The position numbers and the translations under genes were made by a program. Below the pieces are notes generated by a model that saw only the letters and a program-made list of their open reading frames with translations, was not told where the DNA came from and made no database searches. DNA of 52,689 nt from Actinomycetota bacterium (GTDB lineage Bacteria > Actinomycetota > Acidimicrobiia > Acidimicrobiales > Ilumatobacteraceae), in contig SXUP01000045.1 of the NCBI GenBank assembly GCA_005790505.1, positions 1 to 52,689 of the forward strand, in the 5' to 3' direction. Positions 27,294 through 40,660 of the stretch are shown piece by piece. Numbering within the stretch: the stretch's first letter is position 1; every line of letters begins with the position of its first letter.

Positions 27294-28553
27294 CTACTGC
27301 AATCCAAAGAGTTCTCTTACAGCGGCAGACAAACGGTCTCCCTGTGGAGTGCCGGCAGCATCTTTAAGTTGAATTGAAGGCGAATGCAACAGTTTGGCAA
27401 TAATGCCACGGGTCATTGAATCGACAAGTGCTTGCTGATCGGGGGTGAAATCTTCCAAACGATGGGCATAGCGATTGAGTTCTTCTTGACGCGCGCGCTC
27501 AGCAACTTCGCGAAGTTGAGATATCAGGGGTGCCGCTTGGCGAGCAACGGAGTCGACGATAAAACGTTCGACCTCTTGACCCACGATGTCTCGCACTTTT
27601 GCCGCCTCACCAGCTCGCAGTTCGACCCCGCGAGAAGCCCAATCGTTCAGGTCTCCAAGATCTCTTAGAGTGACTCCGTCAAGATGTGCAGATGCGGGCT
27701 CAACATCTCGCGGAAGTGCGACGTCAACAATTAACAATGGGGATATGACTGCTTCTCGAGCACGAGCAAGTGTTGCGGCAGTTATTACTGCTTGACCAGC
27801 ACCGGTGCAAGCCAGCACAACGTCGGCCCGCGACAACTCATATTCGAGGTCGTCCATTGGCACAACCTCGGCATCAATGCGTTGGGCTAAATCAACCGCT
27901 CGCACCTCGGTGCGATTCATTACCGTGATGCTTGACACACCGGCTCTCGATAGCGCACTTGCGACACCTTCACCCATTGCTCCGGCACCCACGACAAGAA
28001 CCCGTCGTTCGGACAGCGACCCTAAAATCTCGCGAGCCATTTCAACTGCTGCGTGCGACAACGAAGTCGTGGCGCGACTGATGCCAGTTTCGTTTCGGGC
28101 TCGCTTGCCGACTTCTAGAGAATGTCTGAACAACGCATTCAGAGATGTTCGCGCAACGCCTTCTGTGCGGGCGATTTCCCATGCATCTCCAACTTGACCA
28201 AGAATTTCTGTTTCACCCACAACTGCAGAGTCAAGACCCGACGCAACTTCGAATAGGTGTGCTATCGCTGCTTCATCGTGTTGACTGTAAAGGTGGGGTT
28301 GTAGTTCTTCGGGGGTCAGACCACTTGTCTCACAAAAAAAGTCCCGAATATCAGCGTAGGCCGCATGAAAACGTTCTGTTATGGCATACACCTCGATGCG
28401 GCTGCATGTCGACAAAAGAACAACTTCGCGCACATCATCACGCACTGACAAACTGTGCAAGGCTTTTGGCAGAGCCTCTTGAGTGATAGTGACTTTTTCA
28501 AGTAATTCAAGTGGACTTGTGCGGTGATTTATTCCGATTACAACAATACTCAT
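27294..28553 (-). CDS. hemA: glutamyl-tRNA reductase
   Basis: This enzyme reduces glutamyl-tRNA to glutamate-1-semialdehyde with NADPH, the first and usually controlled step of C5 haem synthesis. The N-terminus MSIVVIGINHRTSPLELLEK and the nucleophile Cys50 in STCSRIEVYA are diagnostic, with the NADPH motif GAGAMGEGVASAL near residue 185. I chose the ATG at 28553 (419 residues), seven bases after the rex stop; a TTG five codons upstream would overlap rex. The gene order rex-hemA-hemC-hemD matches Streptomyces. Confidence 0.95.
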   Translation of the reverse strand: MSIVVIGINHRTSPLELLEKVTITQEALPKALHSLSVRDDVREVVLLSTCSRIEVYAITERFHAAYADIRDFFCETSGLTPEELQPHLYSQHDEAAIAHLFEVASGLDSAVVGETEILGQVGDAWEIARTEGVARTSLNALFRHSLEVGKRARNETGISRATTSLSHAAVEMAREILGSLSERRVLVVGAGAMGEGVASALSRAGVSSITVMNRTEVRAVDLAQRIDAEVVPMDDLEYELSRADVVLACTGAGQAVITAATLARAREAVISPLLIVDVALPRDVEPASAHLDGVTLRDLGDLNDWASRGVELRAGEAAKVRDIVGQEVERFIVDSVARQAAPLISQLREVAERARQEELNRYAHRLEDFTPDQQALVDSMTRGIIAKLLHSPSIQLKDAAGTPQGDRLSAAVRELFGLQ

Positions 28554-28560
28554 GGGATGT

Positions 28561-29277
28561 CTAAGCAATCACTGATTCGGGGGCTGAGACCACGGCTACT
28601 TCAAGCGCATCAATGCGACACTGCTCATAAAAACTCAAAATTTGCAGTTCCAGTGCCATGTCCACAATTCGCACATTAATTTCTGGAGGTAAATTTAAAA
28701 TAACAGGAGCAAAATTAAGAATAGATCCGACTCCAGCCCGAATGAGAAGATCTGCTGCCGACTGGGCGTGTTGCGCCGGCACCGCGATGATGCCAATACT
28801 CACGGATTTTGATTGAACGATTTGGGGCAGTTCATCAACATGGGCAACCTTCACTCCGCCGACGACGCTGCCAACTTTTGAGGAATCAGTATCTACTACC
28901 GCAGCAACAACAAAACCACGATTGCTGAGACCTCCGTAGTTGCCAAGAGCCTGCCCTAAATTGCCGGCGCCGACAATTACGACTGGCCATGCCTTATTCA
29001 ATCCAAGTTCACGTTTAATTTGGTATAGCAAATATGAAACGTCGTAACCGACACCTCTGGTTCCGTAACTCCCTAAATACGATAAATCTTTTCGAACCTT
29101 GGCCGCATTCTGACCAGATAACGCTGCAAGTTGCTCACTCGAGATTTGTGTGCAATTGTCTGCAATGAGGTCATTGAGGATGCGCAGGTACAAGGGCAGA
29201 CGAACTACTGCAGCTTCGGGGATTTGTCGTCCGGAGGCGGGAGGCATATTGCATAGGCTATTACTTAGTGCATTCAT
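28561..29277 (-). CDS. rex: redox-sensing transcriptional repressor Rex
   Basis: Rex represses respiratory and haem genes when NADH is low and leaves DNA when NADH rises. The N-terminal winged helix (about residues 20-85) has RLPLYLRIL and the helix QNAAKVRKDLSYLGSYGTRG; the Rossmann domain has GAGNLGQAL at 103-111. Length from the ATG at 29277 is 238 residues. An in-frame stop lies immediately upstream, so translation begins there or at Met11 (29247), which aligns better with known Rex starts. A short ORF with a strong ribosome-binding site overlaps the first start. No classical Rex operator is visible in the 45-base gap upstream. Confidence 0.95.
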   Translation of the reverse strand: MNALSNSLCNMPPASGRQIPEAAVVRLPLYLRILNDLIADNCTQISSEQLAALSGQNAAKVRKDLSYLGSYGTRGVGYDVSYLLYQIKRELGLNKAWPVVIVGAGNLGQALGNYGGLSNRGFVVAAVVDTDSSKVGSVVGGVKVAHVDELPQIVQSKSVSIGIIAVPAQHAQSAADLLIRAGVGSILNFAPVILNLPPEINVRIVDMALELQILSFYEQCRIDALEVAVVSAPESVIA

Positions 29278-32602: not shown

Positions 32603-33814
32603 TTAAACACAAATCACACGATCGCGCACTGATAGATCTGCATACACACGCCGCAAACGAGCGGCGGCAAAACCCCATGTATATCGGGTGGCGTGTTCTG
32701 CCGTAGCGACAGACATCGCCGATGCCATACCGCGATTATCTAGTATTTCAGCAATATGTTTGGCGAAGATTTCGGGTTTGCGGTCGGCAACTAAAAAGCC
32801 GGTACGGCCGTGTTCTATTACAGTTAATAGTCCCCCGACGGCATTTGCCACGACTGGGGTTCCGCACGCTCCTGCTTCTAGAGCAACAAGGCCAAAACTC
32901 TCGCTACGACTCGGCACTAGAACCACGTCGGCTGCACGATAATACGTTGACAACAAATGGTGTGGCTGAGGGGCGATAAAATGTACGCGATCGTTTAGAC
33001 GGTGTTTTGAGATGAGTTCTTGCACTGCTGCAAAATAAGTATCTCCGTCAGCACCACTTACTCCCCCGACAATCAACAAATGAGCATCTTTGCGGTCGAG
33101 AGCGATAAGAGCCTCCACGGCAACATCAACGCCTTTGAGTGGTTGAATGCGACCGACAAATAACAGCACAGGGTAATCACCAAGGCCAAGAGCTTTACGC
33201 GCACCATTTTTATCGCCAGGGGCAAAGAACGCGTGCTCTACTCCGGGTGCAACGATTTCAAGTGATCCAGGAGGTGGTCCGTATAGTGAGACAAATTGAC
33301 GCTCTTCTTCAGTGCAACTCACGCAAATCGCATCTGAACAACCGATCACATCAATTTCTGCCTGCTCACGGTAGGCCGACTCATGATCACCGCCTTGAGC
33401 CTTGACGCGGGCAAAAGTATGAAATGTCGAGACCAACGGGACACCAAGTGAATGTTTGAGATTATGTCCAGCAACTCCAGACATCCAGTAATTGGCATGC
33501 AAAACATCGGTGCCACCCGCGGTCGTGATGTGCTGCATCACGTTTTCGGTAAAAACTGGAATCACTTCCGCTAGGGACTCTTTGGGTATGTCAAAATCAC
33601 CTGCTGCAATATGAACCACTTTGTGATTGGGCTCAACATTCACAACAGCCGGAAGATTGGGCTTCCATGCCCTCGTATAAGTGGTGCAATCAACCCCGGC
33701 ATGCGACAGGGCCGATACCAACTCACGAACATAGACGTTCATACCTCCGCCATCACCAACACCTGGCTGCACCAGAGGTGAAGTGTGAAATGAAAGCACA
33801 GCTACGCGTTGCAT
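32603..33814 (-). CDS. mshA: D-inositol-3-phosphate glycosyltransferase (mycothiol synthesis)
   Basis: MshA, a GT4 family enzyme, joins GlcNAc from UDP-GlcNAc to inositol-3-phosphate, the first step to mycothiol. The N-terminus has SFHTSPLVQPGVGDGGGMNV, typical of MshA with its glycine-rich loop, and the C-terminal domain has the donor-site block SRSESFGLVALEAGACGTPV. At 403 residues it is slightly shorter than mycobacterial MshA. A TAGATT hexamer lies eight bases before the ATG on the minus strand, with no Shine-Dalgarno sequence, suggesting a near-leaderless transcript. Mycothiol is restricted to Actinobacteria, so this gene is good evidence for the phylum. Confidence 0.93.
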   Translation of the reverse strand: MQRVAVLSFHTSPLVQPGVGDGGGMNVYVRELVSALSHAGVDCTTYTRAWKPNLPAVVNVEPNHKVVHIAAGDFDIPKESLAEVIPVFTENVMQHITTAGGTDVLHANYWMSGVAGHNLKHSLGVPLVSTFHTFARVKAQGGDHESAYREQAEIDVIGCSDAICVSCTEEERQFVSLYGPPPGSLEIVAPGVEHAFFAPGDKNGARKALGLGDYPVLLFVGRIQPLKGVDVAVEALIALDRKDAHLLIVGGVSGADGDTYFAAVQELISKHRLNDRVHFIAPQPHHLLSTYYRAADVVLVPSRSESFGLVALEAGACGTPVVANAVGGLLTVIEHGRTGFLVADRKPEIFAKHIAEILDNRGMASAMSVATAEHATRYTWGFAAARLRRVYADLSVRDRVICV

Positions 33815-33932: not shown

Positions 33933-34415
33933 TTAGTCAGTCAATAAGGATGCCGTGCCACCGTCGCGCAACCGGGTGACGAGTTCTGCCGTGAGCGCAT
34001 CAATTCGCTCAAACATCTCATGGCGTTGTTGTGAACAACTCTGCTCAAACATCGTGAGGGCATCACGAAGTGAAGTGAGATCTGCATCTGTCAATGACTG
34101 CAGATTTTCGAAAGAAAATTCTGCACATATTTCATCAAGTTGCATCAATAAAGGATGATCGGCAGGAACATCCGTCTCGCGCGGTGGTCGCGCGCTTCCA
34201 CCACCGTGCTCTTGCCCAAAAACGTTTGCCAGGCGTTGTGTCAATGTGCTCTCTGAGGCCGGAGTTTTTGTGATGCGGCGACGTTCCTCATCGTGCACGA
34301 GGTCGACACGCCCTTGAGTGAGTCGGCGAACAAATGACACTGCATCTTCTTGGCGTTGCAAAGCATTGCGTTGAGCCCGCAAGTCTGAGAGTGACAAGTG
34401 CGTTGCGTCGCTCAT
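33933..34415 (-). CDS. rsiG: RsiG-like c-di-GMP-binding anti-sigma factor
   Basis: RsiG in Streptomyces holds the sigma factor WhiG inactive when bound to c-di-GMP; its signature is E-x3-S-x2-R-x3-Q-x3-D. This 160-residue protein has an exact copy (E23, S27, R30, Q34, D38) in a predicted helix, within VRRLTQGRVDL, which is characteristic of the family. A second copy in the C-terminal helix reads E124, S128, R131, F135, D139, with Phe replacing Gln. The two helices would pair as in RsiG. An AGGAGG sits six bases before the ATG, formed by the last codons of the upstream MoaD-like gene, whose stop overlaps this start (ATGA). No WhiG gene is in the window. Confidence 0.82.
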   Translation of the reverse strand: MSDATHLSLSDLRAQRNALQRQEDAVSFVRRLTQGRVDLVHDEERRRITKTPASESTLTQRLANVFGQEHGGGSARPPRETDVPADHPLLMQLDEICAEFSFENLQSLTDADLTSLRDALTMFEQSCSQQRHEMFERIDALTAELVTRLRDGGTASLLTD

Positions 34416-34645
34416 AATGATCCTCCTGAAACGGGTGGCAACACGGCCAGTTCGTCGGTCTCAAGTATCGTGCAAGAGGCATCGACTTCTTCACCATTCA
34501 CCCAGATGCGACTCGTTGCCAAAACTGCGGCGAACGTATCCCCGTAACGAGCAACAGCACCAGCCAAGACTTCAGCCACAGTCGCACCAGGCACATTGTC
34601 GGTTGATCTTCCGACAGCCTCGCGTGCCGCCGCAAAAAAACGCAT
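34412..34645 (-). CDS. MoaD/ThiS-family ubiquitin-like protein ending in GGSL
   Basis: This 77-residue beta-grasp protein has the typical start MRFFAAAREAVG, the middle segment IWVNGEEVDASCTILETDEL and the C-terminal LPPVSGGSL. Family members carry sulphur as a thiocarboxylate on a terminal Gly-Gly. Here two residues (Ser-Leu) follow the diglycine, so it would need trimming to be active, as known for QbsE-type proteins with a JAMM peptidase, or may be inactive. No such peptidase or E1-like enzyme is in the window. I chose the ATG at 34645; the frame is open much further, but that sequence is antisense to the phosphatase gene. It is coupled to the rsiG-like gene. Confidence 0.82.
   Translation of the reverse strand: MRFFAAAREAVGRSTDNVPGATVAEVLAGAVARYGDTFAAVLATSRIWVNGEEVDASCTILETDELAVLPPVSGGSL
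34422..34427 (-). promoter_or_regulatory. ribosome-binding site of rsiG inside the moaD-like gene
   Basis: AGGAGG on the minus strand, six bases before the rsiG-like ATG, is the strongest Shine-Dalgarno sequence I found in the window. It is made by the GGA GGA codons of the diglycine motif, so protein function and downstream initiation share the same bases. Confidence 0.8.
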
Positions 34646-38270: not shown

Positions 38271-39284
38271 GTGCCAATTCAGGCTGAATACATCTGGTTA
38301 GACGGAACCGTTCCAACCCCCCTACTCCGATCCAAAACAAAAATCCTTCCCGACTTCTCGGGAGCAGTTTCGGAAATGCCCCTTGACGAGTGGGGCTTTG
38401 ACGGGTCATCCACAAATCAAGCCACGGGTGAAGCCTCGGACTGCATTCTTAAGCCAGTTTTCCAATGTCCAGATCCCATCCGAGGTGGAAAAAATATCTT
38501 GGTCATGTGCGAAGTATTGCTGGCAAAAGATGCATCACCGCATCCCACCAACACTCGTGCAGCACTTGAAATTGTTGCCAAGAAACATGCTGCCCAAGAA
38601 ATGATCTACGGCATCGAACAGGAATACACGATGCTACGCACAGATGGCTCACCACTTGGATTTCCAATTGGTGGTTACCCAGGACCACAAGGTCCTTACT
38701 ACTGCGGTGTCGGTGCAGGGCGAGTCATGGGTCGCGACATCATCGAAGAACACACGCAAGCCTGCATCGATGCTGGTCTAAAAATTGCTGGCACTAACGC
38801 TGAGGTAATGCCTGGTCAATGGGAGTTCCAAATTGGACCAATTGATGCTTTGGCAGTGAGCGATCAGATGTATGTAGCGCATTGGTTGCTGCACCGCATC
38901 GCCGAAGAATACGACGTGGTCATTTCATTTGCTGCGAAGCCAGAAAAGGGTGACTGGAATGGAGCAGGTGCACATACCAACTTCTCCACCAAAGCAATGC
39001 GTGAAGGATATGACGCCGTTATTGCCGCGTGTGAAAAACTCGGAACTCGAGTTCTTGAGCATGTGGAAAACTACGGCCATGACATTCAGAGTCGACTCAC
39101 AGGTAAGCACGAGACTGCCCCATGGAACAAGTATTCCTACGGAGTTTCTAACCGTGGTGCGTCTGTGCGTATTCCATGGCAGGTTGCTCGCGACCAAAAG
39201 GGCTACGCCGAAGACCGTCGCCCCAACGCCAACTGTGACCCATATACGGTGACGCGTCTCATTCTTGAAACGGTGTGTGACTGA
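38271..39284 (+). CDS. glnII: glutamine synthetase type II
   Basis: This enzyme makes glutamine from glutamate and ammonia. The 337-residue length and the motifs EYIWLDGTVPTPLLRSKTK, WGFDGSSTNQA and the ATP/glutamate segment GAGAHTNFSTKAMR identify the GSII (eukaryotic-type) family, which in bacteria is found in actinomycetes and rhizobia. The start is a GTG at 38271 with AAGGA six bases upstream. It is followed 38 bases later by a type I enzyme, so two unrelated glutamine synthetases are probably co-transcribed. Confidence 0.94.
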   Translation: MPIQAEYIWLDGTVPTPLLRSKTKILPDFSGAVSEMPLDEWGFDGSSTNQATGEASDCILKPVFQCPDPIRGGKNILVMCEVLLAKDASPHPTNTRAALEIVAKKHAAQEMIYGIEQEYTMLRTDGSPLGFPIGGYPGPQGPYYCGVGAGRVMGRDIIEEHTQACIDAGLKIAGTNAEVMPGQWEFQIGPIDALAVSDQMYVAHWLLHRIAEEYDVVISFAAKPEKGDWNGAGAHTNFSTKAMREGYDAVIAACEKLGTRVLEHVENYGHDIQSRLTGKHETAPWNKYSYGVSNRGASVRIPWQVARDQKGYAEDRRPNANCDPYTVTRLILETVCD

Positions 39285-39322
39285 TTTTCTGACATTCACG
39301 GCAGAATATAGGGGTGCCCCCG

Positions 39323-40660
39323 ATGCTTGATCAACAGCGCGACTATGTCCTACGCACCGTTGAAGAACGGGGCGTTCGCCTCGTGCGACTTTGGTTTACT
39401 GACGTCCTGGGAAACCTCAAAAGTTTTGCCATCAGTCCGGCAGAACTTGAAAACGCCCTCAACGATGGGATGACCTTTGATGGGTCGTCAATTGATGGTT
39501 TCAGCCGACTACAAGAAAGCGATGTTCTTGCGATCCCTGACCCCAACACATTTGAAGTAATGCCGTGGGTTGATGCCAAAGGTGCAGAAGCCAGAGTGTT
39601 CTGTGACATTCATAATTTGGACGGAACACCTTTTCAAGGAGACCCTCGACAGGTGTTGCGACGCAATCTTGACGCTGCTCGTGCTCAGGGTTTTGAGTTT
39701 CTAGTTGCTCCAGACATGGAGTACTTTTATTTCGAATTACCCGTTGCTGGACAAAAACCTGTGCCCTTGGACGAAGGTGGATTCTTTGATCTCACCAGCA
39801 ATGACGTTTCTTCGTCAATGCGCAAAGAGACCATACGCACGCTCGAGACAATGGGTATTCCAGTTGAATACTCTTTCCATGAAGACGCGCCAAGTCAACA
39901 AGAGATTGATTTGCGACACACCGATGCGTTGTCAATGGCGGACAGTGTGATGACATTTCGTATGGTCGTCAAAGAAATTGCCGCTGCTCACGATGTCCAT
40001 GCAACTTTTATGCCTAAGCCTCTTGAAGGCGTGCAGGGCTCAGGCATGCATCTTCATTTGTCATTATTTTCGGGTGAAAATAATGCTTTCTATGATGAAT
40101 CTGATCCCTATAACTTGTCGCCAGTTGCCAAACAATTTATGGCCGGTCTTTTGCGTCACGCTGCAGAAATAACAGCGGTGACCAATCAAACCGTCAATAG
40201 CTATAAGCGACTTGTCCCTGGATTTGAGGCTCCAATCCACATCTCTTGGGCACGCAACAACCGTAGTGGTCTGATTCGCGTCCCAATTCCAAAACGAGGC
40301 AGTGCAAGTGCGACCCGCATTGAATACCGCTCGCCAGACCCAGCGTGCAACCCGTATTTAGCCTTCTCGGTTATTTTGGCTGCTGGGCTCAAAGGTATCC
40401 GCGACGAATACGAACTTGCCCCCGAAGCCGACGCCAACTTGTTTGAGATGGGTGACGATGTCTTGCTCAAACTTGGCATCGACCAACTTCCGCAATCACT
40501 GTCTGATTCATTGCGAATCATGGAGCAGTCTTCCCTCGTGCTTGAAGCACTTGGTGAACATATTTTTGAGTGGTTCTTGCGTAACAAGCGTTCTGAATGG
40601 CGCGCCTACAAGACCCAAGTGACCCCATACGAAATCACTCGTTATCTGAAATCAATCTGA
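39323..40660 (+). CDS. glnA: glutamine synthetase type I
   Basis: This is a dodecameric-type GSI with the normal motifs DGMTFDGSSIDGFSRLQESD, the glutamate-site NRSGLIRVPIPKRGSASATR and EYRSPDPACNPYLAFS. The region where adenylylated enzymes carry the NLYDLPPEE Tyr reads EYELAPEADANLFEM with no Tyr in place, so it is probably not adenylylated; this is the GSI-alpha or GlnA2/3-like branch. I chose the ATG at 39323 (445 residues), eight bases after AGGGG; a GTG at 39314 is too close to that site. The glnR-like gene follows after four bases. Confidence 0.93.
   Translation: MLDQQRDYVLRTVEERGVRLVRLWFTDVLGNLKSFAISPAELENALNDGMTFDGSSIDGFSRLQESDVLAIPDPNTFEVMPWVDAKGAEARVFCDIHNLDGTPFQGDPRQVLRRNLDAARAQGFEFLVAPDMEYFYFELPVAGQKPVPLDEGGFFDLTSNDVSSSMRKETIRTLETMGIPVEYSFHEDAPSQQEIDLRHTDALSMADSVMTFRMVVKEIAAAHDVHATFMPKPLEGVQGSGMHLHLSLFSGENNAFYDESDPYNLSPVAKQFMAGLLRHAAEITAVTNQTVNSYKRLVPGFEAPIHISWARNNRSGLIRVPIPKRGSASATRIEYRSPDPACNPYLAFSVILAAGLKGIRDEYELAPEADANLFEMGDDVLLKLGIDQLPQSLSDSLRIMEQSSLVLEALGEHIFEWFLRNKRSEWRAYKTQVTPYEITRYLKSI

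Follow-up and report, generated by a model that had tools for sequence, protein, structure and literature searches.

The anti-sigma factor RsiG has been described in two arrangements (PMC8325347): in Streptomyces two c-di-GMP signature motifs are found in one protein, and in Rubrobacter the protein has one motif and forms a homodimer. In the part of that paper available to us, both motifs are strikingly conserved among 130 twin-motif homologues, the sole exception being a change of Gln to His in motif 1; His is able to stack on guanine like Gln, and the specificity for guanine is conferred by Arg and Asp. The same pages describe a loop of S. venezuelae RsiG by which c-di-GMP is shielded, name K57, G61 and R62 as the S. 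venezuelae WhiG residues that touch the nucleotide, and report twin-motif RsiG in three of four Acidimicrobiales species. The accessible portion of PMC13232838 describes direct binding of WhiG by a further Streptomyces protein, the GGDEF-EAL protein RmdB. A literature search for RsiG together with Acidimicrobi gave PMC8325347 as the only relevant paper, and the substitution in motif 2 described below may still stand in its supplementary alignments. The presence of a twin-motif RsiG in Acidimicrobiales has been reported before, and that substitution is a small addition. The background on which the original prediction for this locus drew, two motifs in Streptomyces and one in Rubrobacter, agrees with what we could see of this source.

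The locus lies in a stretch of 52,689 nucleotides (the window). Among named relatives, an Ilumatobacteraceae MAG from Lake Baikal (89%) and an acIV MAG (87%) come closest, and the window therefore probably comes from a freshwater, lake-dwelling Ilumatobacteraceae-like bacterium; the corresponding genome (2.01 Mb, 66 contigs) is 97.4% complete. The features of the locus are collected in Table 1. On the plus strand the reading of 33933-34415 is interrupted by stops; the open frame is on the minus strand, a point to be added to the original prediction, begins with ATG, has an AGGAGG ribosome-binding site directly upstream, and shares the tetranucleotide ATGA with the preceding gene.

Table 1. Features of the rsiG locus in the window.
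Feature	Position	Strand	Description	Basis
rsiG	33933..34415	-	twin-motif c-di-GMP-dependent anti-sigma factor homologue, 160 aa	ORF, Pfam, PDB match, predicted fold
Motif 1	34302..34349	-	residues 23-38, EDAVSFVRRLTQGRVD, exact E-x3-S-x2-R-x3-Q-x3-D, predicted helix 9-49	
Motif 2	33999..34046	-	residues 124-139, EQSCSQQRHEMFERID, E-S-R-F-D, predicted helix 110-159	
Linker	34173..34229	-	residues 63-81 (A..VFGQEHGGGSARPPRET; GQEHGGGSARPPRET) between motif helices	family alignment + model
MoaD/ThiS-like gene	34412..34645	-	sulfur carrier, upstream of rsiG, stop overlapping rsiG start	
MshA-like gene	32603..33814	-	GT4 glycosyltransferase (under curated MshA cut-off), downstream of rsiG	

The Pfam RsiG model PF22802 matches the product over two stretches (82.6 bits; cut-off 27), and in a phmmer search of the PDB the best match is S. 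venezuelae RsiG (6pfj, E = 1.9e-10, residues 7-153), with Rubrobacter RsiG entries matching more weakly through the motif 1 helix (residues 2-75, E = 0.00067); a search of NCBIfam with the product returned no model at E 0.001. As the PF22802 and 6pfj matches indicate, the homology is wider than the motif alone. Judged by the Pfam model, by the match to the solved S. venezuelae protein and by its predicted fold, the 160-residue product is an RsiG homologue, and the original prediction stands in this respect.

An AlphaFold2 model built on a family alignment of 15 rows (pLDDT 84.0, pTM 0.76, with values above 90 in the blocks containing both motifs) places the motifs on two long helices, which are predicted to form an antiparallel two-helix core resembling S. 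venezuelae RsiG. Foldseek found four PDB matches at E ≤ 0.001, all of them S. venezuelae RsiG chains (6pfv/6pfj; TM 0.62-0.64), the next one having an E of 0.49; we regard the non-RsiG neighbours as generic matches between helical proteins. VIA-align gave Z = 12.5 and 12.0 to S. venezuelae RsiG and 8.7 to the next entry, but the tool warns that helical models may reach such Z by chance, and we have therefore relied on the sequence and Foldseek evidence. The linker between the motif helices is nearly fixed, being among the most conserved stretches in the 15 family sequences, and yet is modelled with low confidence: by position it would match the c-di-GMP-shielding loop of S. venezuelae RsiG, and it may fold on WhiG or on c-di-GMP. 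Overall, the protein is similar to the S. venezuelae twin-motif RsiG (6pfj, 6pfv) in its two motif-bearing helices, length, predicted fold and inter-helix linker, and differs from it in motif 2 and in a sequence identity of only about 26-29% (structural alignments). With the single-motif homodimeric RsiG of R. radiotolerans (7lq2-7lq4) it shares the motif 1 helix; unlike that protein, which has one motif helix per chain, it has a motif 2 and carries both helices in a single chain.

Both motifs were found as originally predicted, motif 1 being exact and motif 2 having Phe135 (codon 34011-34013) at the position of Gln, with the E-S-R-D core of the c-di-GMP motif present on both helices. When the product was shuffled 200,000 times, the exact motif arose in 0.058% of the shuffles and two E-S-R-x-D cores in 0.003%; motif 1 is also the sole exact occurrence among the 339 stop-to-stop frames of at least 60 residues in the window. 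Chance occurrence is ruled out by the shuffles, the PF22802 match and the S. venezuelae RsiG match. Phe135 takes the protein outside the strict published consensus, which requires Gln (or His) as the stacking residue in each motif, but Gln or His is also missing from this position of motif 2 in 21 of 38 twin-motif homologues of other lineages, and for this reason we do not treat the stacking residue as defining RsiG.

We have studied the motif-2 position at increasing phylogenetic distances. RsiG was matched in 50 of the 61 relatives searched, and all 50 sequences were read. A phylum-wide Pfam search gave PF22802 matches in 220 of 346 genomes (217 above cut-off), from which we read 70 loci, the best 30 and another 40 picked for their place in the list and a long open frame, a choice that enriches the read set in twin-motif types; the motif counts exclude 12 of these loci, which belong to families whose frames are short and have a single motif. 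RsiG-matching members outside the read set are G091, G126, G179, G208 and G286 in the family, G137, G189, G262, G304 and G376 in the order, and nine in the class. The alignment of motif 2 in relatives, proposed as a check in the original prediction, has Phe in all 36 family sequences read. The combination Gln/Phe (motif 1/motif 2) occurs in 28/28 members of the genus, where none of the 10 motif columns varies, that of Phe included (over the whole protein 61 of 160 columns are invariant), and in 8/8 members of other genera of the family, four of which have Asp for Glu in motif 1. Among 18 sequences from other families of the order we find Gln/His in 13, Gln/Phe in 4 and His/His in 1, two of them with Ala and Asn at the ends of motifs 1 and 2; with the family included, Gln of motif 1 is kept in 53 of 54 order sequences. 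The Streptomyces-like family f53 has Gln/Gln in 16/16, and in the other 38 twin-motif rows the motif-2 position is Leu (15), His (10), Gln (7), Phe (2), Met (2) or Ile (2). The protein is of the same twin-motif type as the Acidimicrobiales RsiG of PMC8325347 and, going by the names of its nearest relatives, belongs with them at the level of the order. The Acidimicrobiia read here reverse the pattern given in the accessible part of that paper, keeping Gln in motif 1 and having the aromatic residue in motif 2.

These residues were also mapped on a tree of 72 rows, with 6 of the 28 genus rows and 4 of the 16 Streptomyces-like rows; L202 and L204, in which motif 1 aligned poorly, were omitted, and the motif column stayed in the alignment. 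All 14 family rows have Phe and group on a single branch (support 100/99). Since the family is a single all-Phe branch and the position varies elsewhere, Phe135 is the family's inherited state at a tolerant position: the Gln of motif 2 varies across the phylum, and the E-S-R-D core is kept. Phe or His in motif 2 could still stack on guanine. The suggestion in the original prediction of an intermediate state does not survive, because a residue fixed in the family, at a position where many other twin-motif proteins have His, Leu, Phe, Met or Ile, does not belong to a half-built or half-lost motif; an intermediate or decaying motif 2 is ruled out by the fixation of Phe and the retention of the core. 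The bacterium carries an ordinary-looking RsiG, and Phe in motif 2 is no sign of a half-evolved switch.

A few other arrangements were encountered in the phylum-wide set. Locus L183 (G168:C2:235700-241900, minus strand) has a 174-residue frame with two motif-1-like copies, EDAISRRRRLLHGRID and EDDISLNRRVLHGQID, which could have arisen by a separate and recent duplication inside RsiG; the other member read from its family has a short single-motif RsiG, and the L183 genome has six PF22802 matches. Genomes G120 and G356 have five and three such matches, which suggests several RsiG paralogues.

Two explanations of Phe135 can be weighed on these data. It is possible, albeit somewhat unlikely in our judgment, that the substitution alters the affinity for c-di-GMP or its discrimination, giving the switch a threshold adjusted to the lineage. 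Residue states do follow clades (at least 11 changes on the tree, against a shuffled mean of 39.6) and Phe is fixed throughout the family, but drift at a tolerant position also yields fixation by clade. Much less probable is a loss by motif 2 of its half of the c-di-GMP dimer, leaving a protein that binds one nucleotide or forms a Rubrobacter-like homodimer via motif 1. The deviation of motif 2 from the published consensus, next to an exact motif 1, agrees with such a loss, but decay would scatter substitutions, while E, S, R and D are all present in motif 2 of 36/36 family sequences, with the substitute fixed as Phe, and of 38/38 twin-motif sequences outside the order and the Streptomyces-like family, whichever residue is at the Gln position.

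The original prediction had named the absence of a WhiG-type sigma factor as evidence against it, and a search of the genome found one. Of the three Sigma70 region-3 matches, that on contig G000:C43 is a 250-residue protein of the FliA/WhiG family (TIGR02479 above cut-off), with S. venezuelae WhiG (6pfv) as its best PDB match (E = 7.1e-69); the WhiG equivalog model NF004935 scores this sigma best, yet at 270.5 it is below the cut-off of 343. It has Lys38, Gly42 and Arg43, equivalent to S. venezuelae K57, G61 and R62 and kept in 29/29 relatives read, and is the WhiG that matches RsiG, as in S. venezuelae. The whiG gene overlaps a tyrosine-recombinase gene, and the genes after it are an M23-like one (scoring slightly short of its cut-off) and rpsB; in Streptomyces, too, whiG lies near rpsB. 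The remaining two sigmas look principal-type from their sequences. The genome also encodes two GGDEF-EAL proteins with intact signature motifs (SGDEF/GGDEF and EAL); searches of it for a PilZ protein and for flagellar FlhA found neither.

RsiG and WhiG tend to occur jointly, in counts that treat partial WhiG matches in G026, G030 and G060 as present and that come from related, and hence not independent, genomes. In other families of the order (24 genomes) both are present in 17 and neither in 7, with no genome having RsiG only or WhiG only (Fisher p = 2.9e-6). Within the family there is no association (29 both, 4 RsiG only, 3 WhiG only, 1 neither; p = 0.46), and the values for all 61 relatives are 46, 4, 3 and 8, respectively. 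The exceptions are mostly incomplete genomes, but two have a completeness of 92% and 96%.

MoaD-like upstream and MshA-like downstream genes on the same strand as rsiG occur in 28/28 and 27/28 members of the genus (the one miss being a contig end), in 5/5 and 5/5 of other genera of the family, and in 11/17 and 16/17 in the order; at L087 rsiG is inverted relative to both. We had presumed that mshA adjoins rsiG in Streptomyces, but this was not borne out in three 12-kb Streptomyces-like loci, which share no gene neighbours with the rsiG of the window. Elsewhere in the window, genes for GlnII and GlnA glutamine synthetases are adjacent (38271-40660), and the gene for the redox repressor Rex adjoins hemA (27294-29277).

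According to the part of PMC8325347 available to us, the targets of WhiG in Rubrobacter are type IV pili and cyclase genes, which makes pilus and cyclase genes the obvious candidates for a regulon. The only two type II/IV secretion ATPase matches of the genome are inside two pilus clusters that appear to be Tad-like. WhiG-type promoters did not stand out: TAAA-N15-GCCGATAA with up to 2 mismatches has 149 sites in the whole genome against 187 for the reversed control, the exact TAAA-N14-16-GCCGATAA has 16 sites in the 61 relatives against 17 for the control, and neither the ten one-mismatch sites nor the exact sites have a convincing gene start. In 15 upstream regions (rsiG, whiG, cyclase and Tad-like genes, and neighbours) the best sites were no better than in shuffles (lowest fraction 0.19), and a flagellar-type site was not found upstream of one cyclase gene across the genus. 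A GTAGTA element, not of the flagellar type, is present in 11 of 17 aligned rows upstream of the cyclase orthologues of G000:C47:37012 (L233-L249), and is missing in the window's own genome. The original prediction had raised a different sigma target, and the failure of WhiG-type promoters to stand out, in a lineage with no known sporulation or flagellum, leans that way; restraint of a sigma factor other than WhiG is nonetheless very unlikely, because the encoded WhiG keeps its c-di-GMP contact residues and is present or absent jointly with RsiG in the order, and the other two sigmas look principal-type.

Taken together, the rsiG product very probably works in an RsiG-(c-di-GMP)2-WhiG switch of the twin-motif type. 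We infer c-di-GMP binding, the direction of control and the stacking of Phe from the S. venezuelae and R. radiotolerans complexes. The two long helices would fold into an antiparallel coiled coil, as in the model, with one E-S-R-(Q/F)-D motif each; at high c-di-GMP a dimer of the nucleotide would span both motifs and bridge RsiG to the sigma2 domain of WhiG, keeping it off RNA polymerase, and a drop in c-di-GMP would free WhiG. Phe135 would take the stacking place of the second Gln, with specificity still read by Arg and Asp of each motif. The switch is supported by homology, fold, motif conservation, a WhiG with its contact residues, two GGDEF-EAL proteins and co-occurrence in the order. Against it are the NF004935 score below cut-off, the RsiG/WhiG exceptions, the lack of association within the family and of WhiG-type promoter enrichment, and the fact that Phe is unable to make the polar contacts open to Gln. 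More speculatively, and we think this quite doubtful, motif 2 of the Acidimicrobiia may have been rebuilt on an aromatic stacker (His, then Phe in one family), with one polar and one aromatic stack, a shifted threshold and a non-sporulation WhiG regulon in non-flagellated lake bacteria that have only two c-di-GMP enzymes.

The accepted working of the switch is unchanged by these results. They correct the view of motif 2 as near-invariant, an impression from a Streptomyces-rich sample: the stacking Gln can be replaced and the E-S-R-D core cannot, a difference that makes a simple mutational test possible. The c-di-GMP/sigma switch of soil Streptomyces and Rubrobacter would extend to small-genome lake actinobacteria.
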